Positions 1-28,082 of a stretch of DNA of 30,213 nucleotides are shown in pieces. A program made the translations under genes and the position numbers. How positions within the stretch are numbered: the first letter of the stretch is position 1; each line of letters opens with the position of its first letter. The notes beneath the pieces were generated by a model that was not told where the DNA came from, did no database searches, and saw only the letters and a list, made by a program, of their open reading frames with translations. This DNA is from a virus, in the IMG/VR virus record IMGVR_UViG_3300030117_000046, positions 1 through 30,213 of that record; one strand, given 5' to 3'.

Positions 1-1387
1 CCAAGAGTTCTACAAAAACATCCTCAACCTTTCTGGCGCTAATGTCTTTGTAAGTTTGTATCGTTTGAAACGGCAGGACATCAACTGGGTTTTGAACTGT
101 TGTCAGACCCTCAACTGTTGGACTAAGGGGGTCAACACCTCTTCTGGCTTGAAAAACGTTTCTGGCGGCACGGCCCGTTGGAATCCCCCCTGCGGCCATT
201 TCAGAGCCAAGCAGAGGGACGTAGTATTCCTGCGCCTCAATGATTGTTGCCATTTCGTCATCGTCAATAATCTTTGCTCGACGCCTAAGCTCTAGATTTT
301 CTCTAAAAAAATCTTGTAATTCGTCGGTTGCTTTCTTGAGCTTGGTGTCGCCCATGACTTGTTGATACAATTGATCAAGACGCTCATCAGTAATATCTAA
401 CCGGCGATTTGCTCCAGCATTTCTAAGTGCTTTTTCTCGACGAATAATTGCTGCTTGTCCAATGTCATCCAGATTGTTTGCGTGTCGGCGCAACCATGGC
501 TCATAGGCTTGCTTTAGTTTTAACATGCCGTGGCCGGTCTTTAGCGACTGTAGCCCGGATTGAGGGGAGCCAAGCATAACAGAGATAGAGCCACTAATAT
601 CGCGCTCCGCACCAAGGCCTCCCATGCGTCGGGCAGCTATTCGTATTGGATTCCACTGATCAAACCAACCAGTAGCAATTCTTTGTCTATCTGTTAGCAG
701 CTTGCCAACCGAGTCGTTGCCCACCTCTGATAGAGGGGCCATCTGTATGTCGCTAAATTTTCCTTTTTGGATTCCGCTAACGGGAACCCTTGAGCCTCCT
801 GCAAAGGCGCCACCAAGCGCTGATCCCACTAACTCTATTCCAAGTTCTCTGCCGAGGCCTGTGCCTTGTCGCTCCGACCACGATGCCGCACGCGCAACAG
901 ACAATGGTGACTCAGCTACTGTAGCCCCTATTGCAGAACGAAGCCGTGATCCTCTTGTTAGTCTTTGAATGTCTGCTAGTAACTTTGGTGCTGCCGCTGC
1001 TGTCGTAGCACGCCCCACGCCCAGCGTACCTATGGTGGTCCCAATCTCTCCACCTATACGACCAATAAGCTCTCCAGCCCGACCGGCACCGCCTTGCGGA
1101 TCAAAATAATCTTCAGCCCTAGATTCTGCTCTTTGAGAAGCCTCTTGTATTTCTTCGCCTAGTTCGTCTACGCCCAGCCAATCCAGTATCTGGCCAAAGC
1201 CCTCGCCCAAGCTTGTAACAGACCTAGTCCCACCTAGGCCAAGGCCTGCGGCAAAGTCCCCAAGGGCACCCGCAGGGTTACTTCTACCGCTCCGGCGCCC
1301 CGACCGACCCCGGTTGGTTTCTTCAAGTGCCTCTTCGTGCGACAGCCCTTGTTGACGAAATCGTCTATATCTGTCTATAGCTGACAT
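1..1387 (-). CDS. Large protein, C-terminus beyond left edge; polyvalent/internal virion protein-like
   Basis: Reading the minus strand from an ATG at 1387 gives an uninterrupted frame of 462 codons that leaves the window without a stop. The start lies 5 bases after the TAA of the preceding gene. The N-terminus (MSAIDRYRRFRQQGLS) is charged. It is followed by a long Gly/Ala-rich stretch with hydrophobic segments (about residues 110-240), then a helical, charged region containing a WNPIRIAARRMGG segment and, near residue 390, an EYYVPLLGSEM segment. The 'YVPL' segment and the alternating hydrophobic/helical build resemble the large polyvalent proteins that some short-tailed phages package and eject. 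I recognise no catalytic domain in the visible part. Position at the end of the internal-protein block fits an ejected protein. The reading frame is sure; the function is inference. Confidence 0.8.
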   Translation of the reverse strand, partial: MSAIDRYRRFRQQGLSHEEALEETNRGRSGRRSGRSNPAGALGDFAAGLGLGGTRSVTSLGEGFGQILDWLGVDELGEEIQEASQRAESRAEDYFDPQGGAGRAGELIGRIGGEIGTTIGTLGVGRATTAAAAPKLLADIQRLTRGSRLRSAIGATVAESPLSVARAASWSERQGTGLGRELGIELVGSALGGAFAGGSRVPVSGIQKGKFSDIQMAPLSEVGNDSVGKLLTDRQRIATGWFDQWNPIRIAARRMGGLGAERDISGSISVMLGSPQSGLQSLKTGHGMLKLKQAYEPWLRRHANNLDDIGQAAIIRREKALRNAGANRRLDITDERLDQLYQQVMGDTKLKKATDELQDFFRENLELRRRAKIIDDDEMATIIEAQEYYVPLLGSEMAAGGIPTGRAARNVFQARRGVDPLSPTVEGLTTVQNPVDVLPFQTIQTYKDISARKVEDVFVELL

Positions 1388-1392
1388 GAGGT

Positions 1393-3213
1393 TTACGGTT
1401 GAGGAATTAGCTTATCAAAGCCTGTCCCTACCATCCCGCCATCACTGTACCCCTCCTGCTCTGGTCTATTAAACTGAGCATTAGGGAATTGTGCTTGAAT
1501 TTTGCGAAGCACATATCTAGCTAAAGACCTTCTGGCGTCCCCTGACAATCCTAGTGCCTGAACAGTTTCATTGACTGTAGCTAAGCCAGAGTCAAGAACC
1601 TGTTGAGGCGTGCGCTCGTCGTCAACACCACTTGTTATCACCGCATCTATCCTATCCAGTGTATTTTCATAATCAGACTGACTGAGCCGGTCCTGCATAT
1701 TTGCACTTAACTGAGCCGATTGTAAATCAACATCTAGTTTAGCAAGCTGCAACAACAAGTTTGGATCAATGCCCCTAGCCTCTATTTGAGTCTTAAGCTT
1801 CGCGGCCTCTAGTTGCATTGCAAATTGGGCTTCTTCGTCTGAAATGTTACCAGTAATCATTTCTCTGCGAATATTATCTATTGCAGTTCTGGTGTCCCTT
1901 ACTTGTTGCAGGCCACCCATGGTCAGGTCGTCTAACGAATCTTCAATCGCTTCTGCCCGATCCCTTTGTTGCGACCTAAGATCAAGCAATGACGGAACAC
2001 CTGCCGCAATGCCTCCACCAATCCCACCTTCTTGGAACCTGCCTCGGGATATGGCACCACCCACAATACCAGCCAGCATAGCTAAACGATCTCTTTCGTC
2101 CTGCTCTGGATCAATGCGGCCCTCAATGCGGCTTCTTCGTGCATCAATAAGTTCCTGCATTTGACGTGCTTGCTCTTCTTCAAAAGCAATACGACTTTCA
2201 TCTAAGGTTGTGAGCCGGTCGCGGTTTTGTGTCAGCAAGTCTGCTCGCCCTCTTATCATATCCATCATCTCTGTTTCAGAGGGAAGCGGCTGGCCTTGTT
2301 GCTCTATCATGTCCATAAGCTTGCTTCTGACATTGCTACCTAGACCAATTGAGCCAGAAGAACCAGCGGAACCAAAATTGCCGTAGTCGCCGTAGCCACC
2401 TATATCAAGAAGAATTCCGTCGTCTGCTTCTTCGTCATCACCTGTGAACAATTGGTAGCCACCATATCCTAGCGATGTCGCTAAGGCTGGGCGGGTTGCG
2501 CCGCCAATTAATGTCCTAAGACCTCCGAGCCGACCCGTAGGAGCGTCCTCAAGTCTTGACACCCCTTCACGCATCGGTCGCGGACGTTTGAGCACGTCAG
2601 CAACAGCGTCTCGCATTCTCCTAAACTGTGCCTTTGTAAGCCCAGTAGCCGTACCCAATCGAGGAAGAACCTTGAATTTGTTTAAGGCTCCTCCAGTTAG
2701 TATGCCGGTTCCGATGGCAAGAGCGGGATTTTCTTTAGCAAAGTCGATTAATGGATCAGGAAAGTATGGTACATCGTAGTCGTCTGGGTCTACTGGCTGA
2801 CCACCGTCTTGGTATCCGGGTATTCTTCCGCCATCTGAATAGCCAACGATACCGCCTTCTGCCATTGCTCCCATGGGCATTTGCATAGGCATACCACCTT
2901 GTGGGGGCATACCGCCCTGCATCATTGGAGGGCCTTGCTGTGCCATAGCCATAGCCGCAGGCATGGGCTGTGTCTGTTGCTGTTGTGGAATGCTGCCAAT
3001 GCCCGACAGTGCCCTGCTGATCAGTTGATCTTTGACCGTTCCCTGCGGCATCTGCTGCATCCTAGCTTGATAGGACTCGCGCAGTTGCTGACGCCTCTGT
3101 AACTCTTGAGTGCTCAAATAAGCAGGGTACAGATTAGGGGCGTTAACCTCTTGAATTAGCCTGTCGTCAGGAATGCTCTCTAATTCTTTTTGTAGCTGTA
3201 AAATATTAGGCAT
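1393..3213 (-). CDS. Gln/Met/Gly-rich internal virion-like protein (606 aa)
   Basis: The N-terminal 50 residues (DDRLIQEV, then an Ala/Tyr/Leu segment and QELQRRQQLR) match a helical opening I recall from marine phage proteins in this position. Residues 75-117 are almost only Gln, Met, Pro and Gly. Residues 118-137 carry the repeated peptide pattern AEGGIVGYSDGG and IPGYQDGG, and a copy (GYSDGGMVG) returns near the C-terminus. A hydrophobic segment lies at about 161-176, and the second half is predominantly helical and charged, with probable coiled coils. The start follows the previous stop by 9 bases. It is probably an internal or ejected protein because it shares its Gly-rich peptide with the next gene and precedes the giant frame at the left edge. 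No enzyme domain is recognised. Confidence 0.85.
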   Translation of the reverse strand: MPNILQLQKELESIPDDRLIQEVNAPNLYPAYLSTQELQRRQQLRESYQARMQQMPQGTVKDQLISRALSGIGSIPQQQQTQPMPAAMAMAQQGPPMMQGGMPPQGGMPMQMPMGAMAEGGIVGYSDGGRIPGYQDGGQPVDPDDYDVPYFPDPLIDFAKENPALAIGTGILTGGALNKFKVLPRLGTATGLTKAQFRRMRDAVADVLKRPRPMREGVSRLEDAPTGRLGGLRTLIGGATRPALATSLGYGGYQLFTGDDEEADDGILLDIGGYGDYGNFGSAGSSGSIGLGSNVRSKLMDMIEQQGQPLPSETEMMDMIRGRADLLTQNRDRLTTLDESRIAFEEEQARQMQELIDARRSRIEGRIDPEQDERDRLAMLAGIVGGAISRGRFQEGGIGGGIAAGVPSLLDLRSQQRDRAEAIEDSLDDLTMGGLQQVRDTRTAIDNIRREMITGNISDEEAQFAMQLEAAKLKTQIEARGIDPNLLLQLAKLDVDLQSAQLSANMQDRLSQSDYENTLDRIDAVITSGVDDERTPQQVLDSGLATVNETVQALGLSGDARRSLARYVLRKIQAQFPNAQFNRPEQEGYSDGGMVGTGFDKLIPQP

Positions 3214-3222
3214 TATTTTTTA

Positions 3223-4632
3223 CTAAGGATAATTAATTTGAGGCACGTTTATTGGTCCACCGATTGGGGCTGTGGGCATTCCGCGATTTAGCATTGCTTT
3301 GTTGGGGCCAGTTATGCCCATTTGGGCAACTTTGTTTCCATATCTTGGACCTTGATACGATCCACCACCTTTGGTGTACTGCTGGCCTACGTTTTGTCCA
3401 AAGTTTTGTCCTCGGTTTTGACCGAACCCGCCTGCTCCATATGCCCCTAAGCCTGCAACCGCTGTGCCGAGGTATCGCTGTCCGGCTGATGGTCCAGCTT
3501 GTGCAATGTTTCTTTGTTGTACCATAGTGTTCTGGTACGGAAGTTGTCCCATCGCGCCTAACGCAAAGCCAATGTTTTGACGTTCTTGGTTCATGCGGTT
3601 CTGGAAGTCTTGGTATCCAATGTCAAGCGACTGCTGTTGCATCTGACGGGCACGCTGTCCTGCGTCCATCATCTGACCAAAGCGATTAAATGCCATCTGC
3701 TGTTGCTGTCCACCAAGCGAAGCTAAGCCACCGCCAACGTTCATTAATCCTTGAGATGCAGCCATGCGACGAGCCTGATCTGCGGCAAACGCCTGCTGTG
3801 CGTTCTCAAACGCTCTTTGCTGGCCCATGCCATAGATGTCACCAATCTGTTCACTAGTGCCCATGCGAATCGCCTGCTCGCCAAGACCGTGACGCATGCC
3901 GCCAAAAGCGCCTGCTCTTCCGGCTTGACCGCCAAGACGTTGCATTTGCCTTTGTGCTTCTCGTCTGACCTCTCTTGCTTGAGGATCAACCACGCCTTGC
4001 ATGTAACTAGACATATAGGGTTGTAAAGAGCCGGGCTGACTCTGGTAGCCAACACCGCCGTAGCCACCCATAGCGCCCATCATTGCCTGTTGTGCCGCAG
4101 CCATTTCTGCGGGGCCACCACTCATGCCGTACTGATACATGCCGCGCATAGCAGCAGTTTCGGGTCGGCTAAATCCTGCGAGTCGTTGCCCCCCATATCC
4201 TTGATAAGGCCGCATGCTTTCATTGACAATGCGATCCGTAAGTTGTGCATACGCTGGAGCAACTTCAGGTGACACAAAACTTTCTGTTACCTGTTGCGTA
4301 GATTCATCAATCTCACCGCCTTCTTGGTAGCCGGGTATCTTGCCGCCCATGTTCATGCCCAGTGGTGGCAGTGGGCGCCGAATCGGGCTCCTTCTTTCCA
4401 TCTCACGAACAGCTTCGTCACGAGCCCTGCGAGCCTGAGCAGCTTCTAGCACCTCTCTGTCCCCACGACTCATGTAGTTTGGGTCCATGACTGTATTCAA
4501 GTAAGCTAAAATAGCCCTAAGACCTCTCTTTGGTGGCGCAGGAACATCCATCCGATCTCTAGGACGGGAAATTGTGCCTTGCACTCCCGGTGGCATTTGC
4601 AATAGCCTGTCAAGCGATTCGTCTCGTGTCAT
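3223..4632 (-). CDS. Gly/Gln-rich internal virion-like protein (469 aa)
   Basis: I chose the ATG at 4632 because it sits one base after the upstream stop (TAAGATG). An in-frame TTG at 4647 would add five residues and overlap the upstream gene. Residues 97-106 hold GKIPGYQEGG, nearly identical to a peptide in the next gene. The core (about 120-360) is built of PYMSSYMQGVVDPQ, then helices rich in Gln, Arg and Ala, a GRAGAFGGMRHG segment, and long QQQ-containing helices. This 'PYM..YMQGVVD ... GAFGG.R' arrangement is familiar from marine phage structural proteins. The C-terminal 90 residues are Gly/Asn/Gln-rich and probably disordered. By composition and place it is likely a DNA-ejection or tail-tube-forming internal protein. 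That role is inference. Confidence 0.85.
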   Translation of the reverse strand: MTRDESLDRLLQMPPGVQGTISRPRDRMDVPAPPKRGLRAILAYLNTVMDPNYMSRGDREVLEAAQARRARDEAVREMERRSPIRRPLPPLGMNMGGKIPGYQEGGEIDESTQQVTESFVSPEVAPAYAQLTDRIVNESMRPYQGYGGQRLAGFSRPETAAMRGMYQYGMSGGPAEMAAAQQAMMGAMGGYGGVGYQSQPGSLQPYMSSYMQGVVDPQAREVRREAQRQMQRLGGQAGRAGAFGGMRHGLGEQAIRMGTSEQIGDIYGMGQQRAFENAQQAFAADQARRMAASQGLMNVGGGLASLGGQQQQMAFNRFGQMMDAGQRARQMQQQSLDIGYQDFQNRMNQERQNIGFALGAMGQLPYQNTMVQQRNIAQAGPSAGQRYLGTAVAGLGAYGAGGFGQNRGQNFGQNVGQQYTKGGGSYQGPRYGNKVAQMGITGPNKAMLNRGMPTAPIGGPINVPQINYP

Positions 4633-4633
4633 C

Positions 4634-7387
4634 TTAAGCAATCTCAACGTTCAGGGGTCTGTCTGTTTTGGACCCAGCAATATCAATATCTCTTGCAAGT
4701 TTTTTTATTCGTTTAGCGCCTTCCTCTGTGCTACCGCCGCCAACGTTTCGTACCTGACTAGCGGTTAAGACGTATTCGTTTGGGGCAATTGCGGCACCAA
4801 CTCGAACAGGTCCGCCTTCAGCTAGGTTTCCACGAAACTCCATCTCTACTAAACGGTCCCTGTCATCTTGGTCTTCAACTATTGTGTTGTTACCAGCAGA
4901 CAACATGTCATCCATAAGATTTATAATAAATTCTTCACCAAATGTATTTCTTGCTAGTTCAATAATTTGACGAGACACTTCGCTATTTGGGTTACGCAAT
5001 GCGTTTTTTAAAGCTGACAGCATTTCCATCTGTTCAGGACCAACTTCAGAAAGGTTCGGCTTCATAACAGCTACGCGGTCATCAACAGCGCCGCTGCTTT
5101 CCATGGTGCCGTCCTCAAAGGGTTCGATAAAACCCTCAAACGGAATGTCTTGCGGAGCCATGCCGCCATTAGCGCGACCTTCTAGGGCTCTTGGCGGCGG
5201 CAACATGCGACTAACTGGCATTTGTTGCATAGGCTGTGGCATAAAGTCAGGCGATGGCTGAACTGGTTGCGGCATCTGCATAGGAGGTTGCATTTGCTGC
5301 TCAGCAGGAACCGCTCTCCGTGGCGCTTCTATTCTTGGCCTAGAAAATTTATCTCCGGGGTCAGCAATCATTGGAGGAGGTGGCCCCATTTGCGGTTGGC
5401 CTTGTTGCAAGAATGGCATGTTCGGCATTTGTAGCGGAGCCTGTGGTGCCGCAGGTCCACGGAACATAGAGATTGGGTCTTGCTGTTGTCCGGCAAACAC
5501 AGAGAATGGGTCTTGCCCCAAGAAGGTCTCTGGTTGCCCTGTTTCTAGGGCTTGTTCAGACATCAGCCCGGCACGGTACCATTCTGGAATGTCTGTTATT
5601 TCATACGCTTGAGGCGTGAACTGTCCCGTAGACGAACCAACAACAACCGGCGCTGCCCCTAGATCTCTGTCTCTTTGTGCCAACAACTCTGGATTTTCAT
5701 AACCCGGCATAGAGGTTGGGCTATCGTCATAGGGACTTTCTCCTTCAATCATTGTGCCGTTAATACTAACTATGTCGTCTGAGGGGGTGCCCCTTGCAAT
5801 AGCTCGTATGTTCTCTATTTCAGCCGATTCGTCTGCGTCCCCAAACTCATCTTGAGTTTCAAACCTTTCTGCCATTCTTTTCTGTTCTTCGGTCATTCGG
5901 TCGCCGTAACGGTAACGACCTTCTTCGTACGAAGTGCCCCTGCCTTCTGGCTCTGCACCTCTTGTTGTCCGCTCTTCTGTCCCAGATAGGTCACCGCCGC
6001 CCTCCCTTGGGCCTCGTTCTCTCTGGTCTTCTGGGCGCTCGCGGCGACCTCTGCGGTCTTCACGCGGAGCCGCTCTTCTTTCAACTCTTTCAAAACGATC
6101 TTCAATTTCAGACGTTTCTTCGCGCCGTTCCCTTGACGGGGGTGGCGGAGATGCTGGGTCTGGTCTTACAGGACGATCTATGTTTAGGTCAGGTCGGCGC
6201 CGTATAACAGGAGCGGTATACTCAGGTATTGGGCGTCTGGGCCTGACGGGCTGTAGCATAAAGTCAGGTATACCCATTTCGCCCCCCTCTTCCATCATGC
6301 CACCGCGCCTTCTGCTAGGAATTTGCGCGTATCCCTGCGCCTGCGCCCCGCCACCTTGACGATCAGTGACATAACTGGGCATAACACGCTGAATTTCTTC
6401 GCCACCCCTAGAGCTTACTGGCGCTCCCATCCTGCCCAAGCTGTCTGCGCCCACGCCGCTTAGTGCTTCGCCCAACAGTGGGTAGCCAAGTGACATCATA
6501 GCAGGGTGCTGTGCAACGTTCATAATTTTGTCTAAGGTGCTTAAACCCGAAGCCGCTGTAGCACCTTTTGATGCTGCCGAAGCTGCGCCACCTGCTCCCC
6601 CTAAAGATTGACCAGCTTTTGCACCTATAAATCCTTCTGCACCACCTCTCAAAGCGCCCTTAAGACCACCCCCATCCATTGCCCCACCTATTGCACCAGA
6701 ACCTGCTGCTATAGGAACTGTAAATGCTTGGTGAGGACCGGGAATCATGGAAGCCACAGAAGCAACTTTACTTAAGCCGCGAAAAAATCCACCCAATCCA
6801 TATCCGGGTACATACATTCCACCACCCGCCATGGGGATAGTGTAGATACCACCACCGGCCATCTGTGCGAAATGTGGCATCGTGTAGATACCGCCGCCAG
6901 CATAACCGTCTATCAAGCCACCAGAGGCACGACCCTCTGTGCCCATGGTTGCTGCTAAAAGTCGTCTCCACATGTCAGGAGAAAAGTGCCGAGTGTACTC
7001 GTACATCCCACTGTCTGGATCAGGCCCAGATCTCGGATCTGCTGAAAACCCAAGGTTCGGATCTTCTTCATCTTTCAATATAGCTAAATTAGAACGCCTT
7101 ATTGTTTCTGATACTGAACCCGGTTCTCCGGGGGCAAGCCCGGCTTGACTTCTTGCTAATTCGTGCCGCATGCGTGAGTCTGCCATACGCCTTGCCAAGT
7201 TTCGCTTTCGGGATTTTCCCGTAACCGTATACACAGAATCAACGGGAGTAGTGTATGGCTCACCGTCGATTATTCTTGTGCGGTCTGCCGTACTAAGAGT
7301 GTCTGCCTTAGCAAGAAAATCTTCAGGGTCAACATCGCCGCCGTTAGCGTAGCCCATTTGTTCAGGAAAGTTTGCTCGACTCATCAT
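4634..7387 (-). CDS. Large disordered, repeat-bearing virion protein (917 aa)
   Basis: Four regions are visible. Residues 155-200 hold three tandem GGGIYT-type repeats (GGGIYTMP, GGGIYTIP, GGGMYVPGY). Residues 203-310 are Gly/Ala-rich and hydrophobic, like the membrane-active segments of ejection proteins. Residues 390-510 are an extreme Arg/Glu/Pro segment, certainly disordered. Residues 620-735 are Pro/Gln/Met-rich. Near the C-terminus (856-897) AEGGPVRVG leads into PNEYVLTASQVRNVGGGST and GAKRIKKL. This resembles the 'DGEFVVPADVV..LGNGST..GA..L' signature common in marine phage structural proteins. Two ATG codons stand together at the start, 2 bases after the upstream TAA. Length and repeats suggest an internal or tape-measure-like virion component. 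The exact role is unknown. Confidence 0.85.
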   Translation of the reverse strand: MMSRANFPEQMGYANGGDVDPEDFLAKADTLSTADRTRIIDGEPYTTPVDSVYTVTGKSRKRNLARRMADSRMRHELARSQAGLAPGEPGSVSETIRRSNLAILKDEEDPNLGFSADPRSGPDPDSGMYEYTRHFSPDMWRRLLAATMGTEGRASGGLIDGYAGGGIYTMPHFAQMAGGGIYTIPMAGGGMYVPGYGLGGFFRGLSKVASVASMIPGPHQAFTVPIAAGSGAIGGAMDGGGLKGALRGGAEGFIGAKAGQSLGGAGGAASAASKGATAASGLSTLDKIMNVAQHPAMMSLGYPLLGEALSGVGADSLGRMGAPVSSRGGEEIQRVMPSYVTDRQGGGAQAQGYAQIPSRRRGGMMEEGGEMGIPDFMLQPVRPRRPIPEYTAPVIRRRPDLNIDRPVRPDPASPPPPSRERREETSEIEDRFERVERRAAPREDRRGRRERPEDQRERGPREGGGDLSGTEERTTRGAEPEGRGTSYEEGRYRYGDRMTEEQKRMAERFETQDEFGDADESAEIENIRAIARGTPSDDIVSINGTMIEGESPYDDSPTSMPGYENPELLAQRDRDLGAAPVVVGSSTGQFTPQAYEITDIPEWYRAGLMSEQALETGQPETFLGQDPFSVFAGQQQDPISMFRGPAAPQAPLQMPNMPFLQQGQPQMGPPPPMIADPGDKFSRPRIEAPRRAVPAEQQMQPPMQMPQPVQPSPDFMPQPMQQMPVSRMLPPPRALEGRANGGMAPQDIPFEGFIEPFEDGTMESSGAVDDRVAVMKPNLSEVGPEQMEMLSALKNALRNPNSEVSRQIIELARNTFGEEFIINLMDDMLSAGNNTIVEDQDDRDRLVEMEFRGNLAEGGPVRVGAAIAPNEYVLTASQVRNVGGGSTEEGAKRIKKLARDIDIAGSKTDRPLNVEIA

Positions 7388-8877: not shown

Positions 8878-9070
8878 CCATTGTCATAAACTGATACTTA
8901 CGGAGCGACAGTGATGAAGTCGATTCCGTGTGGTCCATTGCTCGTTTTGTTTCTGCCCCTACTGTCCTAAAGTTTTGCTGAATCGTGTACCGAAAAGATT
9001 GAGCTTCGACCGGATCATATTCCTGCGGTGGAACCTCAATATTTAGATACTTGTTTCCGGTATCACTCAT
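8861..9070 (-). CDS. Small hypothetical protein (69 aa)
   Basis: It is coupled to the propeller-like tail gene by an ATGA overlap (start 9070, upstream stop at 9067). The sequence opens MSDTGNKYLNIEVPPQEYDP and continues into an amphipathic helix (EAQSFRYTIQQNFRTVGAETKRA). It ends with a Ser/Met-rich tail. No family is recognised beyond being a typical small gene between tail genes. Tight coupling on both sides supports real translation. Confidence 0.65.
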   Translation of the reverse strand: MSDTGNKYLNIEVPPQEYDPVEAQSFRYTIQQNFRTVGAETKRAMDHTESTSSLSLRKYQFMTMGGASV

Positions 9071-11424
9071 CTCCGACCATCCGTTCTTGCGTCAACCCTA
9101 ATAAAGCCAACACGCCAGCCGTAACCAGCGCCAGAACTCGACACCTTTACTGACGCCTGTCTAGATCTACCACGAATATTTGACTGCGTTGCTGAAGGAG
9201 TAAACGCAGATGATGCAATCTCTGTTTGCGACTCCATTGGGTAGTTGTGTCCGTTGATTGACACAGTAACCTCGTCATCCGAAGACGCATTTAAAAATTT
9301 AATATCGGGAATAATTCTGTTCAGAGACATAAACTGATCACCCTCGCCAAGGTCTATGTCGCCTGTTTCAACATACGATGTAAACGCCGTATCTACATCG
9401 TTCCAACCTGACTCTTGTCTGTATATCACATTAGGATAAATAACTGTGCCCGATCCGCCAGCAGCAGACTCTGTTGATGTAGCATTTGAACCCATTTCTA
9501 GCGTATAGGTGTTAACTCCTGTAACAGTTACAGGGTGCATATTGTTAATACCTTTTTCGTGGAATCCGCCAAATTCTGAAAATGCTTTAAAAATAACTTT
9601 ATCGTTCGTAGACAGTCCGTGTGCAGTGTCTGTTACGGTAACAGACGAAGAGCCACTTGATGTAGCAAATGGATTAGCGCCAAGAGACTTGGTGTTAATT
9701 GATGTCGCCAAGGGGTTGTTAATTAAGAAAGCGTTGTCCCAATCACCCCTAGCCATAGTTCCGAAATACCACACATCTTCGTCGTAGTTATAAACAACGT
9801 AGCGGTCGTTTCTTCCAGAAGATGAAGTAGAAGGGTAGAACCAGAACACTTCGGAAAGGTCTACATTTGTACCTGCAACCACTTTGTAGTCTTGATCGAA
9901 GTTAAAGTCATCAAAGACTGTGCTAAGGACAGGGCATGTAAGTCTTTGCACTGTTCCCGTGTAGCGGTAAAAAGCGCCACGATCCATAAAGAACGTTACA
10001 CCGTTAGCGCTTGCGGCAGCGTTGGGGGAAATCATCGACATTCCCACCCCTACGGTGCTAAAGGCAAAGTAAAACGGATCTCCTGTGTAACGCATACTAA
10101 CGAGGCCAGCATCAGTCCATATTAAAATTTCGCCACGCGCTTTTAAGGCACCAATAATGGTGGAACCAAGAGATAGTTCTTGACCACCAGCGCTATTTGT
10201 AGACAGGGGTTGCCAGTCTGTAGCGTCTTCAGAACTAGACCACCGCACAAGATTTAAATCAATTGTGCTAGACCCAATTGGATTGCATCCAAAACAAATA
10301 ACATGCTTAGCAATTTCGCTTGTCATTACCTGCAAGCATTTTGTTGGCGGGTAATGCGTACCAGCCTTGTATGTTGCAGTAATTCCGGTGCCGCCGCCGG
10401 TTGCTGTTGACGAAGCGTTTGAGCCAAACGTAATCGTAAAGACAGAAAGCGTCACGATTGAAGCAACATCATAGGTGCCATCAATGCTAATTCCGCCAAC
10501 AGAGGGGGCACCTGCAATGGTTACACTGTCACCAGCAGCTAAACCGTGTCCGGCATCGTCGTAAATTTCAACGGTCGGAGACCCTGACGTTGTTGTAATT
10601 GGGTCCGTACCAAGCGTAACTGAAGCCCTTGTTAGATCAGCAAGAGGAACAGCGGCTGTGCTAGTTCCTGCACTTTCATCCCAGTAGTAAACCTTGTTGG
10701 CACGGTTGTTTGCAAGAAGGTCATCTCCGAAAGAATCCATAGACCACAAGCGAATCTTTTCTTCAGGGGTAGATAGCGTTGAGCCCCAAGGTCCACTGCC
10801 CCACGTTCCGGTGCCCCATGCTGTCAGAGACGCGGCGTCAATCGGGCCAGAGTTTATTTCATAAGTAGCGGTAAACGATGAGCCCGCAGCACCTGTGCTG
10901 GTAGCAAAATCGTCTACTAAGACAACGTATTTATTGTTTTCGTCTGTACCTGCCAAGTCGCCTAGGTACGCAATGTAATGTTCGGTATTTAGCGTTGCAG
11001 CAGGTATACCATTTACGGCGCCACTAATACTAGAAAAGGTTACAAAGTCGCCACGCTTTGCCCCGTGGTTGGTGTGCGACACAACAACAAGACCGCTTCC
11101 ATCTGTCGTTGTTATTTGGTTACTACTTATAGAAGCCGTTGATCTTGTTGGCGTAATGTCGTAGTAACCAATGGTGTTGTTAACGTACAGCTTGTTGTTG
11201 GTCCCAACACCAATATAGATCTCGCCGGTTCCGGTAGCCCAATTGAAGATTTTGCGCCCAACGCCAAATATTTTTCCTGACGTATAATTAATCCAGCCGC
11301 CTATCTTCTCTACAAAGCCTTTACGAAACCTGACTTTATCAGAGTCGAACCACGTTCCTTCTGCGGAATACCTTGTTCCGTCAGTAAAAACTCCGGGGCG
11401 AGGCGCAATCTTAAGCAGAGGCAT
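9067..11424 (-). CDS. Large beta-rich tail protein, propeller/stabilisation-like (785 aa)
   Basis: The N-terminus, with PRPGVFTDGTRYSAEGTW followed by DSDKVRFRKGFVEKIGGW, is a signature of a widespread phage tail family. The C-terminal 35 residues (RQASVKVSSSGAGYGWRVGF, then RVDARTDGRR) are its usual ending. Between them, repeated strand-rich segments with WSMDSFGDDLLANN, LVRWSSSEDATDWQP and WTDAGLVSMRYTGDP look like propeller blades. I associate the fold with the P22 gp10-type tail hub that seals packaged DNA, but that is inference. Three similar modules with an HGxxxxD-type core (His-Gly at about 120, 293 and 602) interrupt the blades. The family is often nearer 500-650 residues, so these insertions explain the size. 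The start lies just after the basic-protein stop. Confidence 0.85.
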   Translation of the reverse strand: MPLLKIAPRPGVFTDGTRYSAEGTWFDSDKVRFRKGFVEKIGGWINYTSGKIFGVGRKIFNWATGTGEIYIGVGTNNKLYVNNTIGYYDITPTRSTASISSNQITTTDGSGLVVVSHTNHGAKRGDFVTFSSISGAVNGIPAATLNTEHYIAYLGDLAGTDENNKYVVLVDDFATSTGAAGSSFTATYEINSGPIDAASLTAWGTGTWGSGPWGSTLSTPEEKIRLWSMDSFGDDLLANNRANKVYYWDESAGTSTAAVPLADLTRASVTLGTDPITTTSGSPTVEIYDDAGHGLAAGDSVTIAGAPSVGGISIDGTYDVASIVTLSVFTITFGSNASSTATGGGTGITATYKAGTHYPPTKCLQVMTSEIAKHVICFGCNPIGSSTIDLNLVRWSSSEDATDWQPLSTNSAGGQELSLGSTIIGALKARGEILIWTDAGLVSMRYTGDPFYFAFSTVGVGMSMISPNAAASANGVTFFMDRGAFYRYTGTVQRLTCPVLSTVFDDFNFDQDYKVVAGTNVDLSEVFWFYPSTSSSGRNDRYVVYNYDEDVWYFGTMARGDWDNAFLINNPLATSINTKSLGANPFATSSGSSSVTVTDTAHGLSTNDKVIFKAFSEFGGFHEKGINNMHPVTVTGVNTYTLEMGSNATSTESAAGGSGTVIYPNVIYRQESGWNDVDTAFTSYVETGDIDLGEGDQFMSLNRIIPDIKFLNASSDDEVTVSINGHNYPMESQTEIASSAFTPSATQSNIRGRSRQASVKVSSSGAGYGWRVGFIRVDARTDGRR

Positions 11425-11695: not shown

Positions 11696-11928
11696 CAGTG
11701 ATCCGTTCTCCTTGCGAGTCTTTCTTTGATGTTTGCTGTCTCTGCTTCAACCGATGCAAGGCGCTCGCCATGCGTATCTACTTTTGTTCCAATGCGGTTT
11801 ACAGTGCGTTCAATTTGAGCAAGGGACTGTTTAGCCCCATTTAGTCCTGCCTTTACCCCGCCATAAGCGGCCCCTGCTGCGGCTGGTATGGCAAGTAAAG
11901 ACATTAGAGTAGTCACGTCACTCTCCAT
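11695..11928 (-). CDS. Small membrane protein with coiled coil, holin/spanin-like candidate (77 aa)
   Basis: Residues 7-30 (LMSLLAIPAAAGAAYGGVKAG) form a single plausible transmembrane helix with small residues. Residues 35-72 form an amphipathic coiled coil (SLAQIERTVNRIGTKVD ... RLASVEAETANIKERLARR). This N-in, helix-plus-coiled-coil build is seen in inner-membrane spanins, in some holins and in small tail-associated proteins. The ATG at 11928 overlaps the fiber gene by 11 bases. A GTG at 11916 has a better spaced GGAGAG ribosome site and follows the fiber stop by one base (TGACGTG), so the real start may be there. Function is a hypothesis. Confidence 0.72.
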   Translation of the reverse strand: MESDVTTLMSLLAIPAAAGAAYGGVKAGLNGAKQSLAQIERTVNRIGTKVDTHGERLASVEAETANIKERLARRTDH

Positions 11929-14900
11929 TTTCCTTAGACTCTGCCTTGTTTCTTTCTAGCCTGAAAAGTCCATCGTTGTCAGTTGATTTTGAATCTGTGT
12001 AGTGACTATCGTTTCTTTCAGCAACTACTAGCCATGACACAGTATCCGTGCAGTCACTGTCTTGTGCAGAAATAGTAAGTGTAGAACCTGAAACAGACCC
12101 ACGGACTTGAGTCCAACCTGTTTCGTTCTGCACCCAGACTTGAGGATTGCGGCAAAGAACCGCCCATGTGCCGCTAGTCATTCTTGCAGCCTCATCTAAG
12201 TCAATTGTTGCAGCACCCCCTTGAAGATCGACGCTGCCACGGTACATAAGGTCGGCTTGCGGACCCTCAATGCTTGCATGAGACAGTGTGTGCGTGTCCG
12301 TCATGCTTGGCAAAGGATGGTCAATTCGGAACGTCTTTGTTCCTGCGGTAAGCTCCCCAACCACATTGACTGTGCCACCGCTTGAAATGCTCATTCGAGC
12401 AGTTTCATTGGTGCCAAAAACCATGCCTATTGAGCCAGCATTGTTGTAGATATTCATGTTGCTACCGTCTAGTGCGATAGCACCACTGTAACCATTTCCT
12501 GTAATAGCAAGCTGACCACTTGCACTAGCATCCATTGAGATGTCTTGTGCATCTTTAATTGTAAGTTTGGCATGGGGCGTTGCTACGCCAATACCAACGT
12601 GGTCGTTTCCTGCGTCTGCATAAAAAAGGTTTGCGTCTCCGTTGCCTTCAATACGAAAGTCAACATCAGCAGAAGCTTCGTTGAAGACGGCTCCGGCATT
12701 AACTGTAAGTGTGCCGCCCAGTGTGGTCGTGCCTGACACATCTAGTGTACCGTTTAAATCAACGGCTGTTGCGTTAAGCTCAATCTCATCGGTAGCGTTA
12801 ATATCCAGAACGGTAGCCGAAGGTGCATTAATGTACTGAGACGCATCGTTAAACTGCAAAGCCATTGTGCTATTAAGCAACAAGCCCGTGTCTGCAACAT
12901 GGGTCAAAGTTACATCGTCATCATCACCGAATGATATTACCGCTTCATCTGCCAAGAACAGATCACTAAACTCTAATGAAGCTGTACCTAAGGCAGCGCC
13001 ATCTGACGCATCGGGCACAAACGCTGTGGTAGCCGTGATCGTTGTTCCCTGAATGGTGCTAGACCCTGTAATTGCACCGTCTACTTGTAGCGTAGACGCC
13101 ATATCTACAGCACCGTCAATGTCTACGACATCAAGGTTTGTGGTTCCGTCTACGTCAATGTCACCAGCTACATCAAGTCCTGCTGCACCAGCCAGCACGA
13201 GATCGTCGGCAGACTCATCCCAGAGCATGTACGCTCCGGACGTAGCACCAAAGAACTTTACATCGTATCCAGTATCATCAACCCCGACCGTAACCGTAGA
13301 ATCAATTTGGACCGCACCATCAATGTCTACTGCGTCTAGGTTGGTGGTTCCGTCAATATCAGCGTCTCCAGAAATATCAAGAGAACCGGCATCAAGCTCG
13401 CCCGTTAGTGTAACATTTCTAAAGCTTGCAATGTCCTTGTTGCTATCTACCACAACCGCCTTAGAGGCTGCTACGGTACCGGCGGTTATGCCGTCAAGCA
13501 TTTCTAGCTCGGCTTCTGTTAACTCTGCGCCTGAGCCTAGCGTAAGCGTCCCCGTTACCGTCAGGTTGTCATTAACTGTTACTTCTGATGTGGTGTGACC
13601 TATTGAGACTGGAACGCCTGACGTAGCGGTTCCTATGGTAATTCCGTTTGAGGTATTGGAATTATCTATGTTCAGTGTAGATGTAGAGTCCAGTGAAATA
13701 TTAGAACCGTCTACAACTAGGGTTCCATCTACATCTGTATTGTCTAGGTTGGTGGTCCCATCTACATCTAAATCGCCGTTAAAGTCAGCGTTGCCACCAA
13801 GGGTCAATGTCGTAGCCATGTCAACCGCACCGTCAATATCTACTACATCTAGGTTGGTTGTACCGTCTACGTCTAGGTCACCATTAAAATCTGCATTACC
13901 AGCTAAGGTTAGCGTAGACGCCATGTCAACTGCGCCGTCAATGTCTACGACATCAAGATTTGTGGTTCCGTCTACATCTAAGTCGCCTGCTAAGTCAATG
14001 CCCGCAGCGCCTGCTAAAACTAGATCGTCAGTAGACGTATCCCAAAGCATGTACGCACTAGCGGTGTCTCCAAAAAACTTTACGTCATACCCGGTGTCAT
14101 CTACACCAACTGTAACGGTCGAGTCAATTTGCACTGCGCCGTCAATGTCTACTGCGTCTAGGTTGGTAGTTCCGTCTACATCCAGATCCCCATTAAGATC
14201 AGCATTGCCAGCTACGGTAATGGTGCCAGACACATCCAGTGTGCCGTTTAAATCTATTGCGGTAGCGTTAAGCTCAATTTCGTCTGTTGCGTTAATGTCC
14301 AGTATTGCATTTGAAGGAGCATTGATGTATTGACTGGCATCATTAAACTGGATTGCCATTGTAGAGTTAAGTAGCAATCCGGTATCTGCAACATGTGTTA
14401 GCGTTACGTCGGTGTCTGCACCAAAGCCAAGAACAGCAGCGTCTGACTTGAGGGTAAGGTCGTCGCCAACAATTGCATCAGTCCCGACCGTTAGGCTTGT
14501 CATTAGCTCTAAGTCAGCAAACGCATCTAGTACCGCAGCACCTGATCCCGCACCATCAGTAAAGACTGCTGCAACCTTTCCGTTGCCAATAGTGATGTTG
14601 GCGCCAGAGCCTTGGCTAATAATAATATTGTATGGCCCGGAAGACCCTGAGTCGCCAGTAGCATTCTCAATAAACCACAGTTTATTAACTGTGTTCGGGG
14701 CAATCGTAATTGTGCAATCAGAGTCTAAGTCGCCCGTATACTTAAGAAACATTGCGCGGCCTTCATCGGCGGCGCCATCTGCTATCGTCGTAGTATGAGT
14801 ATTGGCGTTAGTGGTAATTGCTTCTGTACCAGAGCCAAACGCATCTGCAATCAACTCAAGGTTAGTGTTGGTTGACGCTCCCCATGTGCCTTCTTCGTCG

Positions 14901-14947
14901 CCAGTAGCAATTTCCTTTAAACGAAGATTGTTAACGTATGTAGCCAT
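11918..14947 (-). CDS. Tail fiber protein with tandem beta repeats (1009 aa)
   Basis: Residues 1-150 (MATYVNNLRLKEIATGDEEG, then GTWGASTN) are the virion-attachment head common to marine phage fibers. Residues 160-750 are the shaft, made of short beta repeats. DGTTNLD occurs six times (about 258, 326, 361, 396, 532 and 600). Two longer blocks are each duplicated: one around 181-241 and 679-741, the other around 256-345 and 530-620. Residues 783-790 read DHVGIGVA, a typical fiber element. The C-terminal domain has KTFRIDHP, HASIEGP and a closing VSWLVVAERND segment, a conserved receptor-end module. The start overlaps the previous stop (TAATG) behind an AAGGG ribosome site. It probably forms a trimeric fiber contacting the host surface. 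Confidence 0.92.
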   Translation of the reverse strand: MATYVNNLRLKEIATGDEEGTWGASTNTNLELIADAFGSGTEAITTNANTHTTTIADGAADEGRAMFLKYTGDLDSDCTITIAPNTVNKLWFIENATGDSGSSGPYNIIISQGSGANITIGNGKVAAVFTDGAGSGAAVLDAFADLELMTSLTVGTDAIVGDDLTLKSDAAVLGFGADTDVTLTHVADTGLLLNSTMAIQFNDASQYINAPSNAILDINATDEIELNATAIDLNGTLDVSGTITVAGNADLNGDLDVDGTTNLDAVDIDGAVQIDSTVTVGVDDTGYDVKFFGDTASAYMLWDTSTDDLVLAGAAGIDLAGDLDVDGTTNLDVVDIDGAVDMASTLTLAGNADFNGDLDVDGTTNLDVVDIDGAVDMATTLTLGGNADFNGDLDVDGTTNLDNTDVDGTLVVDGSNISLDSTSTLNIDNSNTSNGITIGTATSGVPVSIGHTTSEVTVNDNLTVTGTLTLGSGAELTEAELEMLDGITAGTVAASKAVVVDSNKDIASFRNVTLTGELDAGSLDISGDADIDGTTNLDAVDIDGAVQIDSTVTVGVDDTGYDVKFFGATSGAYMLWDESADDLVLAGAAGLDVAGDIDVDGTTNLDVVDIDGAVDMASTLQVDGAITGSSTIQGTTITATTAFVPDASDGAALGTASLEFSDLFLADEAVISFGDDDDVTLTHVADTGLLLNSTMALQFNDASQYINAPSATVLDINATDEIELNATAVDLNGTLDVSGTTTLGGTLTVNAGAVFNEASADVDFRIEGNGDANLFYADAGNDHVGIGVATPHAKLTIKDAQDISMDASASGQLAITGNGYSGAIALDGSNMNIYNNAGSIGMVFGTNETARMSISSGGTVNVVGELTAGTKTFRIDHPLPSMTDTHTLSHASIEGPQADLMYRGSVDLQGGAATIDLDEAARMTSGTWAVLCRNPQVWVQNETGWTQVRGSVSGSTLTISAQDSDCTDTVSWLVVAERNDSHYTDSKSTDNDGLFRLERNKAESKENGE

Positions 14948-21369: not shown

Positions 21370-21774
21370 TTATGCCCTTTCAATGCCACGCGGATCTTCG
21401 ACTACCGCCTCAACAGTGTCGTCATTTATAATGCGGAACTCTTTGCCATGGATCTTTAGACGAGTGCCGCTAAATGCGCGGAACACCACCCAGTCACCCA
21501 CTTGGCAGTATGGTCCGTTAGGAAAACGATTTGGGTCAGAGTAAGCGTCTGGCCCCATGCTCATAACCCAGCCTACAACAGTTGCGATAGTTTCTTCGTG
21601 TTGATATTTGGCTGATTTAATAATGCCGCCTTCCGTTTTTTCATCTACCTCTGGAAGGGCAATAAGCATTTTGTAGCCTTTCGGCTCAGGTAGCTGTGAC
21701 GCTTTCCTTTGCGGTGCGTCTTCAGCTTCGACACTCTCAGTGTCTGTGGCCTCTTCGGCCTGAAGCGTGGTCAT
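21370..21774 (-). CDS. GroES-like co-chaperonin (134 aa)
   Basis: After an acidic 30-residue extension, residues 33-125 follow the Cpn10 fold: GYKMLIALPEVDEKTEGGII (first strands and base of the mobile loop), a KSAKYQHEETIATVVGWVMS segment, then GDWVVFRAFSGTRLKIHG and EFRIINDDTVEAVVED. These correspond to the GroES landmarks 'KT-GGI', 'V-GD-V-F-SGT' and 'ILREDDILAVV'. An insertion (SMGPDAYSDPNRFPNGP) precedes the GDWV strand. The mobile loop lacks the usual Ile-Val-Leu tripeptide and reads Ile-Ile-Lys. T4 gp31 is the known precedent for a phage cap that makes GroEL fold capsid protein. A strong GGAGGT ribosome site and its place before scaffold and capsid genes support the same use here. Confidence 0.88.
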   Translation of the reverse strand: MTTLQAEEATDTESVEAEDAPQRKASQLPEPKGYKMLIALPEVDEKTEGGIIKSAKYQHEETIATVVGWVMSMGPDAYSDPNRFPNGPYCQVGDWVVFRAFSGTRLKIHGKEFRIINDDTVEAVVEDPRGIERA

Positions 21775-25201: not shown

Positions 25202-27169
25202 CTAGTAGCCAACGCGGCGCCGTATTATTTCTGGAAGATCTGGGTCTGGAAAACCAAACTCAAGTATTTTTCGTTTAAATAAATTTTTGTCATTAACTAT
25301 AAGCTTTAGTTCTTTTAGCAACTCTTCTGCACGCAGAAAGTCGCTTTCTCCGACCGCTACGGCAACCTCTCTACCAAGCTTTTGCATTTCATTGTAGACA
25401 GGAATAACCTGATGTGCATGACTCATTCTTTTTAATTGCAAAGAAAGCCTCATTGAAAATGCTTCATCGTCGGATGCAGCATGTTTAGTCATAAACATTT
25501 TAGCCTTGTCAAGTAACTGTCGTTCATCTTTTGAGAGCGCATGTGTGCCCTCTGCAAGGCCTTTTGCCCACCTTTTCTGAGCATTACCCATATCGTACCT
25601 GTCTGCCATTAGGTCCTGACCTAAATACTTCAGCATGTCGTCAATTGAAGCCTGCAACCCTTCTCTTGTAAACTCAAGATTGTCCTCCGCCCCGTCTGCT
25701 GATTTAAGGCCTACAAACAAAGGGCTCTCTGGGTCAAGGTTTTTTGTCATTTTGTTTGTAAGGTCAGCAGCACCCGTTATAAAGCGATGAAGACCCGTGC
25801 CTTCAAGAGCAAGGTCTAAGTCTGGAGCCGCAATAAACGGATCGTCTGCAAAATAACGAGGATTCCTGACCGGCAACTCGTCACTAAAGGGCATCCCAGT
25901 TATATCAAGGCCCCCCTCGGGAATTTGTCCGGGCTCCCGCATCCGTGACATAATTTTTAGTTCTAATTTTCTTGCTGGCCTAGATTTTAATAATCTTGGC
26001 TCATTTAAAAGAGAGTCTGGTGTTCGAACAACCTTGCGCCGTCCTAGTTGGCGAAGATCTGCCGCAGGAGGATCGTCTGCTCCTATTCTTGCGATAGCAG
26101 AATAATAATCTTCCAAGAACTCAAAATCATCTGAATCTATAATTTCTTTGCGAGCGAGAGTATCACGCAGCGCCATTAACTCTTGCTCGCCTGTAAACCT
26201 TAACGTTGCTCCGACTTCATCAGCAAATCCCGGCAAATCAAGAACCACATCTTCTGGCTCAAGTTCAAATGTACGGATTCCGGGTTTACGGGCTTTGTAC
26301 AATCCTTTCCCTGTTGTCCCTCCCCGCCTTGCCCAAAAATCTGCTGTGCTTTTCATTGGCGAAGTTCCAATAACTGGAGTGTCCAGTCTGTCGTCGCTCC
26401 GATACACTCTAAACTTTCGAGGACCACTAAAGGTTGGGTCTACTTTTTGGGGACGCCCCGTGCCATAGTCGTAGGTCTTCATATAATCTTGAAGAATGCC
26501 TGCAACTCTTTGTGGAATTGTTTCGCGAGCAACAGCATTTAAGTGCCGAAAAACTTGCAAGGCTTCCTCAAAGTCAAGGTCTGTAATTGAATCTACAAGA
26601 CCAGTTTCCTCCCATTGATCCATAAAAGCTCCTATATGAGCACTTCTGTCATAGTCTCCCAATGTCGGATTCCAAAACATTTCTAAGTGTTCGCGCTCAA
26701 GCTCTGGAACGCTTGGGTCGTCTGACCTTGCTAATGCTCGGAGTATGAGGGGCAGTTCTCTTTCTCTTTCTCCTAAGCGTCTACGAGCCGTTTTGTACTG
26801 GACTTCTCCGGGATCTTTTGCAGGGAAGTCGGCAACCGTCATGCTCAGCAACTCTTCTTCACTAAACGGTCCGTCCGGTAAGTCATCTTTTGGTGGTGTC
26901 TTTGGCACAGTAGAAGGGGGCGTATCCATGCCGCTACCGCCTGCAATCCTCCTAAGTGTGCCGCCAGCAACAAACGGCAACGCTAGACCTAGTGCCCCGA
27001 AGCCTATTCTTTGAGCATCCCGTTCCCGTAGACCCATAAGGATGTCGGCAACGTCAATGCCTTCACCTATGCCGGGAAGCATAGACGCGCCAAGAAACGC
27101 GCCCATCTCTGCGGCGCCTTCGGGCCTAAGTATCCGGTTTATCCGGTCAAAAAAATCGTCTTCGTCCAT
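25202..27169 (-). CDS. Modular virion effector candidate with R-S-E ADP-ribosyltransferase-like core (655 aa)
   Basis: Residues 1-75 match the two genes upstream: MDEDDFFDRINRILRPEG, then LPGIGEGIDVADILMGLRER and a hydrophobic LPFVAGGTLRR end. Residues 251-335 look like an arginine-type ADP-ribosyltransferase: VYR (R257), T-S-P-M-K-S-T-A-D-F-W (269-279), a strand segment TFELEPEDVVLDLPGF, and GEQELMAL with E-Q-E at 328-330. This is the R, S-T-S-like and E-x-E order of the R-S-E class. T4 Alt, which is injected with DNA, is a known precedent. The last 70 residues (HQVIPVYNEMQKLGREVAVA and following) match the C-terminus of the 473-residue protein. The region between is helical and unrecognised. 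The domain call is by motif only. Confidence 0.8.
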   Translation of the reverse strand: MDEDDFFDRINRILRPEGAAEMGAFLGASMLPGIGEGIDVADILMGLRERDAQRIGFGALGLALPFVAGGTLRRIAGGSGMDTPPSTVPKTPPKDDLPDGPFSEEELLSMTVADFPAKDPGEVQYKTARRRLGERERELPLILRALARSDDPSVPELEREHLEMFWNPTLGDYDRSAHIGAFMDQWEETGLVDSITDLDFEEALQVFRHLNAVARETIPQRVAGILQDYMKTYDYGTGRPQKVDPTFSGPRKFRVYRSDDRLDTPVIGTSPMKSTADFWARRGGTTGKGLYKARKPGIRTFELEPEDVVLDLPGFADEVGATLRFTGEQELMALRDTLARKEIIDSDDFEFLEDYYSAIARIGADDPPAADLRQLGRRKVVRTPDSLLNEPRLLKSRPARKLELKIMSRMREPGQIPEGGLDITGMPFSDELPVRNPRYFADDPFIAAPDLDLALEGTGLHRFITGAADLTNKMTKNLDPESPLFVGLKSADGAEDNLEFTREGLQASIDDMLKYLGQDLMADRYDMGNAQKRWAKGLAEGTHALSKDERQLLDKAKMFMTKHAASDDEAFSMRLSLQLKRMSHAHQVIPVYNEMQKLGREVAVAVGESDFLRAEELLKELKLIVNDKNLFKRKILEFGFPDPDLPEIIRRRVGY

Positions 27170-27182
27170 TACAATAATTTAG

Positions 27183-28082
27183 TTAGCGACTCCGCAAACT
27201 TTTTATGCCTCCACTAAAAACAGGATCTCTACTGATTATATCCAACACATCGTCGCCATAGGCAACAATTTGTTTTTCGTCGCCCATGAGTAGATCCTTA
27301 ACTAAGGCGCCCGGAATGTCGTATTGGTCATATAAAATGCTCTCAAGCACACCTCGGCCACCTATGTTTGAACCAGTATAACCATGTTCTTCAAAAAACC
27401 TTTGAAACCCTTCTCGTGAACGTTGAGGAACTGGGTTCCCATAAAAAGTTCTCCCGGACTCCAAGTCTGCTACTAAGTCAAAAAGACTCTGCACCTCGTC
27501 CCTTTCGTTTGCAATAAACTCTTTATACAAGTCTTGATATGCTTTTGGTTGACCTTCAAGACTGTGTTGGTGGTATCTTATAAAGTCTGCTTCGGGCGCG
27601 TTTAATTTAACTTTGTATAAGTACCCAAGCGGCAACTCTTCTCCTGCTTCATCAAGTCTTGGAAGTGCCAAGCCCGTATCTGGGTCAAGCTTGGCACCTT
27701 TTTTTGCAAACCCTACACCTCTTCTAATTGCATTAGTAATATAGTGACCAAGGCCTCTGGCTTGTTCCGCGCCTAACTCTGTAAGCTTGTCAATGTCAAA
27801 CTTATCAAACAAATTGGGAGACCCGTGGTACCAATCATCAACAAGGCTACGAATTCCTTTTCCGCCTGCTCTGAGTTGAGCGCCCGAAACAGGTGAAACC
27901 ATTCCTGCTAGTGCTAACGCTCCTCGACCCGGCTCCTTGTTGCGAATAGCCATAAGAAGATCTGCCGCGTCAATACCAGTACTGACGCCCGGAGTCATTG
28001 TTGCACCAAGAAGTGCTCCTGTTTCAGTGGCACCCTCCGGGTTTAGCAGTCGATCTATTCGGTCAAGAAATTCCTCGTCCAT
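27183..28082 (-). CDS. Modular virion effector candidate with H-Y type ADP-ribosyltransferase-like core (299 aa)
   Basis: ATG at 28082 (TGATG with the upstream stop) is preferred over an in-frame TTG at 28085, because the sister proteins also begin MDE. Residues 1-75 are the shared module (FLDRIDRLLNPEG, TPGVSTGIDAADLLMAIRNK). From residue 84, WYHGSPNLFDKFDIDKL, then GLGHYITN, LGYLYKVKLNAPEADFI, HGYTGSNI and EKQIVAYGDDVLDI follow the order of the ADP-ribosyltransferases found in polyvalent proteins. His86 of YHG and Tyr114 would line the NAD pocket. Unlike its two sisters it lacks the C-terminal module. It probably modifies a host target if delivered. Substrate is unknown. Confidence 0.8.
   Translation of the reverse strand: MDEEFLDRIDRLLNPEGATETGALLGATMTPGVSTGIDAADLLMAIRNKEPGRGALALAGMVSPVSGAQLRAGGKGIRSLVDDWYHGSPNLFDKFDIDKLTELGAEQARGLGHYITNAIRRGVGFAKKGAKLDPDTGLALPRLDEAGEELPLGYLYKVKLNAPEADFIRYHQHSLEGQPKAYQDLYKEFIANERDEVQSLFDLVADLESGRTFYGNPVPQRSREGFQRFFEEHGYTGSNIGGRGVLESILYDQYDIPGALVKDLLMGDEKQIVAYGDDVLDIISRDPVFSGGIKSLRSR

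Follow-up and report, generated by a model that had tools for sequence, protein, structure and literature searches.

A short glycine-rich motif recurs on otherwise unrelated virion-type proteins encoded downstream of a phage tail hub

Results

Gene content of the window

The window analyzed here is the entire IMG/VR virus record IMGVR_UViG_3300030117_000046, a linear fragment of 30,213 bases. On the minus strand, a terminase fragment is followed by portal, capsid, and tail genes and then by a region encoding proteins with a short glycine-rich peptide, in the following referred to as tag; the genes for the tagged proteins come after the gene for a 785-residue tail hub (Table 1). Named relatives of the portal protein (27–43% identity) were from the Pelagibacter phages HTVC027P and HTVC023P, phage 023Pt_psg01, the Roseobacter phages CRP-901 and CRP-902, and others. 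The relatives of the window phage are presumably short-tailed.

Three further regions were noted, all on the minus strand. Three tandem ORFs at 25202–29503 (655, 300, and 473 amino acids) have an N-terminal domain of approximately 80 residues in common (49–56% identity, E 4e-16 to 1e-23). In addition, 62 residues near the C-terminus are common to the first and third, and the middle one gave a sub-threshold match to an ADP-ribosyltransferase (ART-PolyVal). No relative of these ORFs was found among the loci compared. A 1009-residue tail-fibre-like protein (11918–14947) contains repeated 'DLDVDGTTNLDxVDIDGAV' units and matches at its N-terminus a PHROG of unknown function. The homologues of a 134-residue protein (21370–21774) in HTVC027P, HTVC023P, and CRP-901 are annotated as co-chaperonin GroES.

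Table 1. Tail hub, tagged proteins, tag copies, and modules in the window
Feature	Positions	Strand	Basis or relation
Tail hub, 785 residues ('stabilization protein' type)	9067..11424	-	Annotations of relatives: 'stabilization protein' or 'virion structural protein'
917-residue tagged protein; five half-tags and C-terminal tape-measure-type module	4634..7387	-	
N-terminal tag of the 917-residue protein, GYANGG (residues 12-17)	7337..7354	-	
Tag array of the 917-residue protein, GGLIDGYAGGGIYT...MAGGGIYT...MAGGGMYVPGYGLGG (residues 156-200)	6788..6922	-	
C-terminal hook-like module of the 917-residue protein, LAEGG...PNEYV...helix (residues 855-908)	4664..4825	-	Structure model and profile
474-residue tagged protein (469 residues from ATG at 4632)	3223..4647	-	Putative relative of PHROG 4287 'DNA ejection protein'
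Tag of the 474-residue protein, GGKIPGYQEGG (residues 101-111; IPGYQEGG = 104-111)	4315..4347	-	
606-residue tagged protein; 'LPDxxL' module at the N-terminus, PQ-rich linker, two tags in tandem, a middle that varies, and a tag at the C-terminus	1393..3213	-	
N-terminal module of the 606-residue protein (residues 3-65)	3019..3207	-	Iterative HMM
Tag copy 1 of the 606-residue protein, GGIVGYSDGG (residues 120-129)	2827..2856	-	
Tag copy 2 of the 606-residue protein, GGRIPGYQDGG (residues 128-138; IPGYQDGG = 131-138)	2800..2832	-	
C-terminal tag of the 606-residue protein, GYSDGGMVGTGFDKLIPQP (residues 588-606, including EGYSDGG at 588)	1396..1452	-	
Incomplete next gene, of which 462 residues lie in the window; half-tag MAAGGIPTG (residues 397-405; 173-199)	2..1387	-	

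Tag copies in the window and in relatives

An earlier note on this DNA had described the peptide IPGYQ(D/E)GG in the 606-residue protein and in the 474-residue protein, there counted from the later start codon as 469 residues, together with related GYxxGG or GGGxY peptides in the 917-residue protein. Both observations were confirmed. The two IPGYQ(D/E)GG copies are alike in 26 of 32 bases, and the 917-residue protein contains GY..GG at residues 12, 161, and 195 plus three AGGG[IM]Y peptides (AGGGIYT twice, AGGGMYV once). Not named in the note were two more copies in the 606-residue protein, five [MFYL]A.GG peptides in the 917-residue protein, and one in the incomplete next gene; among the 31 window ORFs examined, [MFYL]A.GG was absent from every other one.

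Residue shuffling gave expected GY..GG numbers of 0.025 for the 606- and 0.036 for the 917-residue protein, each with three observed, and in neither case was this number reached in 5000 shuffles. The single copy in the 474-residue protein (0.066 expected) had a P value of 0.065 and is therefore not significant on its own. When the three proteins were compared by BLAST, the best match between the 606- and 474-residue proteins covered 17 residues at the tag (E 0.003), and no relation of note was found among the three outside the tags.

In close relatives, the three genes occur in unchanged order and the tags are kept, often in tandem 9 to 10 residues apart. GG....Y..GG is invariant in all seven homologues of the 474-residue protein, with 100% identity of the tag core versus a mean column identity of 41% for the N-terminal flank (first ~90 residues). 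In the 606 family, GG.VGY..GG of tag copy 1 is invariant in 5/5 homologues, which also keep the G...GG and IPxP frame of the C-terminal tag; the middle region varies in length and sequence. A tblastn search with the three proteins against named phages gave no match, and neither did one with a composite tag peptide, for which low-complexity filtering is a possible cause. According to the earlier note, a frequency no higher than expected for glycine-rich sequences, with no conservation in relatives, would refute the tag. The opposite was observed: the frequency exceeds this expectation, and the tag core is invariant in the 474 (7/7) and 606 (5/5) families. The proposal that one short tag is carried by otherwise unrelated, neighboring virion-type proteins is thus supported by conservation in relatives and by a frequency far above that given by glycine-rich composition.

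An iterative HMM detected the N-terminal module of the 606-residue protein in 30 proteins of the fetched loci, 25 of which also contain G[YF]..GG; loci L005, L007, L008, L010–L013, and L043, which repeat contigs already included, were left out of this set. In many phages, this module ('LPDxxL...P..YL...EL.RR..LR') lies ahead of the tag; a mid-chain position between two tags was seen in some proteins (L075, L151).

Motif definition and distribution in IMG/VR

Searched as a degenerate DNA pattern, IPGYQ[DE]GG was found in 32 IMG/VR contigs, in 30 of them inside a called ORF, and the reversed peptide in none. GGIVGY..GG was present in at least 120 contigs versus five for its reversed form, and lay inside a called ORF in 116 of the 119 loci read. 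Gene calls in the loci were mechanical (longest non-overlapping ORFs, no annotation). Two positions left free by the search were conserved among 138 distinct examples, with M, F, or Y three residues before the first GG (98/138) and A two residues before it (93/138). On this basis, the tag is an instance of a recurrent short motif of roughly the form [MFY]-A-x-G-G-[IV]-[VA]-x-[YFL]-x-x-G-G, often repeated every 8 to 10 residues.

Motif-independent analysis of tail hub loci

Eighty IMG/VR loci (the best 80 of 595 confirmed matches) were fetched by the tail hub gene alone, ignoring the motif; only 37 of them extend at least 3 kb downstream of the hub. In the 256 downstream proteins, the core GG[IVLM]..[YFLM]..GG occurred 31 times (in 24 proteins) versus 1 in reversed and 0.64 in shuffled sequences, the half-tag [MFYL]A.GG[IVLM] 52 times (in 33 proteins, some of them near-duplicates, e.g. 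L183/L236) versus 5 and 4.5, and the full motif 17 times versus 0 and 0.02. The corresponding observed, reversed, and shuffled numbers in 627 upstream proteins were 2, 2, and 1.8 for the core, 7, 7, and 5.6 for the half-tag, and 0 throughout for the full motif; in the 80 hub proteins themselves, none of the three was above background. The looser G[YF]..GG was in moderate excess upstream (47 versus 27.5 expected), and this short form alone is therefore not specific. A GG–GG spacing of 8 formed a local peak in downstream proteins only (66 versus 11.7 expected). Downstream half-tags were present in 18 of the 37 loci that extend 3 kb or more beyond the hub (reversed pattern: 3), and in eight of these loci two or more proteins carry them. 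The motif is real at the protein level, is conserved within its families, and clusters in genes that follow the tail hub.

Assignment of the tagged proteins

The 474-residue protein matched PHROG 4287 'DNA ejection protein' (residues 116–412, profile positions 7–320 of 392, E 2.8e-16), to which it is related as judged from this profile match. The match begins after the tag, which is thus not part of the PHROG 4287 model. A PDB search with the 474 family gave no match, and the AlphaFold model of the protein was poor (mean pLDDT 39). Searches of PHROG, Pfam, and the PDB with the 606-residue protein gave nothing notable, and neither PHROG nor Pfam gave a tape-measure match over the body of the 917-, 606-, or 474-residue protein.

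For the tagged proteins, 77 of 102 representatives were scanned against PHROG; the 25 longest were left out, seven of which were scanned separately. Among the matches listed (25 of 37 families), six of the 77 were named DNA ejection protein. Further names listed were lytic tail protein, transglycosylase, endolysin, internal virion protein with endolysin domain, tail injection transglycosylase, tape-measure proteins, and a few tail-fibre names; many had no name. The longer representatives included one clear tape measure and one ejection protein. Where a PHROG name was obtained for a tagged protein, it was thus in most cases of the ejection, tape-measure, or lytic tail type. Length-matched untagged controls from the same loci (n = 77) gave portal, terminase, hub, primase, and tail names (25 of 96 families listed). 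Only two of the 33 half-tagged hub-locus proteins matched any PHROG, both 'DNA ejection protein'. The tag is accordingly concentrated in ejection and tape-measure genes as compared with other virion genes, with exceptions; Pfam matches to an outer-membrane barrel, a surface antigen, and a Gly-rich domain were obtained with one member each, as expected for chance or host genes.

The tag was absent from gp20–24 of phage SU10 (gp24 being cut at the stretch end), PaP3, phiM5, and HTVC023P in the stretches read; a small PaP3 protein that is not encoded by the ejection genes carries one half-tag. Two tagged proteins were found in the cultured phage DSL-LC04. According to the respective publication (PMC9509320), SU10 gp20–24 are internal proteins lost on genome release and were experimentally found to be ejected. 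Since these four phages do without it, the tag is one lineage-bound solution rather than a universal signal. The suggestion that the tag marks ejected proteins fits those tagged families to which PHROG gives a name. Ejection does not require the tag, as the untagged SU10 proteins show, and the tag is not confined to ejected proteins, given the outer-membrane and Gly-rich-domain matches.

The C-terminal hook-like module

Many downstream genes encode a second element of the form '..GGRLLRGPGDGVSDSIPA..LADGEFVIPA..V..LGNGST.AGA..LY.MMD'. Its signature [GN]E[FY][VI] was present in 32 of the 256 downstream proteins (0 reversed), 1 of 627 upstream proteins, and 1 of 80 hubs. One of the 32 matches (L177) is probably due to chance; the module alignments comprise the other 31 and the window. 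Both elements occur together in 12 downstream proteins of the 80-locus set if P or Y is also allowed after GG. The GE[FY]V module often forms its own gene of ~200–330 residues upstream of the tagged gene (L144:1679-2656, L099:548-1417, L063:1272-1922), as if the element can be split off or fused.

Of the three tagged proteins, only the 917-residue protein has this module. A profile built from the 31 modules without the window matched it at residues 865–908 (E 2.8e-9), and also matched the tape measures of DSL-LC04 (E 1.5e-20) and JBD25 (E 6.9e-6). The same profile gave no significant match to lambda gpH (E 9.7), HK97, D29, 80alpha, or T1, and N15 was not among the matches; the reversed-sequence control had nothing below E 0.4. 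A profile including the window matched the PDB tape measures 8zdo_S (E 2.6e-9, two repeats) and 8rk3_A (E 0.025, residues 999–1056). The former is from mycobacteriophage Douge, as stated in PMC13033339; the latter is taken to be the JBD30 tape measure, its length of 1158 agreeing with the residue numbers in PMC11445458. As judged from these profile matches, the C-terminus of the 917-residue protein is a module that is also carried by tape-measure proteins. It is predicted to fold into a beta-hairpin followed by a helix (residues 855–908, mean pLDDT 74.5); fold searches with this model gave no match at E below 0.001.

Discussion

How phages choose and hold the proteins that are ejected ahead of their DNA is poorly understood; ejection proteins diverge fast, and most have no family name. 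The protein classes treated here and the tape-measure hook are known; no earlier account seems to exist of the tag or of its occurrence on unrelated ejection proteins. Among the open PMC papers searched, we found no description of the tag peptides, or of a Gly-rich motif shared among tape measures or ejection proteins, an absence that is no proof.

Our tentatively preferred reading is that the tag is a recurrent short motif of internal/ejection and tape-measure proteins in many tailed phages, where it acts as a docking or tether element. Within linkers that are otherwise flexible, the tags would be flexible points of docking or tethering, through which ejection proteins may be attached to one another or to the tail channel or hub during assembly. 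Tagged proteins could then stay anchored while they are extruded, as has been proposed for the C-terminal hook of tape measures. The tags would probably anchor ejection proteins in the delivery channel, and the 785-residue hub is a candidate docking partner. The idea of docking gains from the tape-measure hook module with which the 917-residue protein ends. Tags of different proteins encoded in one genome did not resemble each other beyond expectation (22 loci, P 0.176; L001–L005, L007, L010–L013, and L043 left out), and there is accordingly no sign of co-evolution with a genome-specific partner.

The main rival to docking, though an unlikely one in our estimate, is a flexible Gly-rich spacer, i.e. 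an extensible linker that threads the portal or tail channel and has no specific partner, the likeness of the tags arising from alternating turns and small hydrophobic stickers. It is in line with this that the tag lies in low-confidence coil (pLDDT ~32) between N- and C-terminal helices in the model of the 474-residue protein, that it adjoins PQ-rich linkers of variable length, and that within-genome co-variation was not found in the 22 loci. However, a spacer does not easily explain invariant tag columns amid a hypervariable linker, nor why residue order matters (5 contigs for the reversed motif versus at least 120) and why hydrophobic and aromatic positions are fixed with a spacing peak at 8.

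A further-reaching version, in which the Gly-rich peptide is a portable 'ejection address' re-used on unrelated proteins, appears improbable to us. Such an address would be common to short-tailed ejection proteins and long-tailed tape measures, and would recruit its carriers into the ejected column and tether them to the delivery channel.

We consider it more improbable still that the proteins are cut during assembly by a phage or host protease, at the tag or close to it, although tape measures provide analogies. In PMC10038345, T5 pb2 is described to be cleaved after R1127, between a hydrophobic stretch and a peptidase, and lambda TMP to be cleaved as well; the authors of the JBD30 study predict a cut at 1066 beside the hook (PMC11445458). 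The T5 cut after Arg is unlike the tag, which has no invariant charged residue and in which the residue before the first GG varies (D, G, S, E, K, Q, and others). Fixed scissile-bond residues other than Gly were not found in the tag; a cut inside the GG pairs may be conceived. Multiple tag copies would cut a protein to pieces. In a scan of 15 window proteins, no head-maturation-type protease gene was conspicuous; the match of the capsid protein to fused capsid-protease families is, in our judgement, confined to their capsid part. Cleavage at the tag, one of the roles suggested in the earlier note, therefore has little support, with no invariant cleavable residue pair, no protease recognized nearby, and only the analogy with the lambda and T5 tape measures, which are cleaved in a similar general region.

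An origin at the DNA level, by recent copying or gene conversion between neighboring genes or as a recombination joint for module exchange, is very improbable. The 26 of 32 alike bases and a codon identity slightly above expectation (67/171 versus 55.4, z 1.9, 22 loci) are compatible with it. In the window, however, codons of identical residues agree in 6 of 9 cases versus ~3.2 expected from codon usage, which is weak, the peptide recurs across very different phages, and conservation is at the protein level. Recent duplication was rejected on these grounds.

Even less credible is a glycine zipper (GxxxGxxxG) for membrane insertion, a pattern that GGIVGYxxGG fits. In a set of 189 distinct tags, compiled with the same loci left out as in the within-genome comparison, 168 contain D, E, K, R, Q, or N, and only one lies in a 19-residue window with a GRAVY of at least 1.6. 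This match (L163:9374-11533) is truly hydrophobic (ALVGGIVGYFIGGPVGAT) and the only transmembrane-type case, and with a hydrophobic context in 1/189 tags the zipper was rejected. Chance likeness in Gly-rich proteins, to which the 474-residue protein taken alone (P 0.065) would conform, is refuted by the shuffle, reversed-sequence, hub-locus, and whole-collection controls.

If the motif holds, it allows ejection proteins to be located in marine phages that lack annotation and provides a concrete link between the ejection proteins of short tails and the tape measures of long tails; with ~13 residues, the peptide would also be a small, testable element for binding studies and mutagenesis.

Compared with known systems, the SU10 ejection proteins are likewise encoded downstream of the tail genes and differ by the absence of the tag. 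In the C-terminal region of the tape measures lambda gpH and N15 gp16, [FY]A.GG elements flank ...RGEFVF..., with a GG–GG spacing of 6 instead of 8; among seven well-studied or near-relative tape measures, half-tags close to the C-terminus were found only in those of lambda, N15, and JBD25. The lambda tape measure is ejected and cleaved. The likeness to lambda and N15 was seen by eye only, and lambda gpH was not upheld as a clear relative, its E value of 9.7 with the window-free profile not being significant. Another close counterpart is the tape-measure hook of JBD30, Douge gp16, DSL-LC04, and JBD25, which has a profile in common with the C-terminus of the 917-residue protein. In JBD30, residues 1022–1066 are predicted by the authors to form a hook of two helices and a beta-hairpin that was proposed as baseplate anchor (PMC11445458), and the matched region overlaps this predicted hook. 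In many copies of the module, a GG element directly precedes it. Unlike in these hook systems, the 917-residue protein is no tape measure by library match, and it carries standalone tag repeats elsewhere in its chain.
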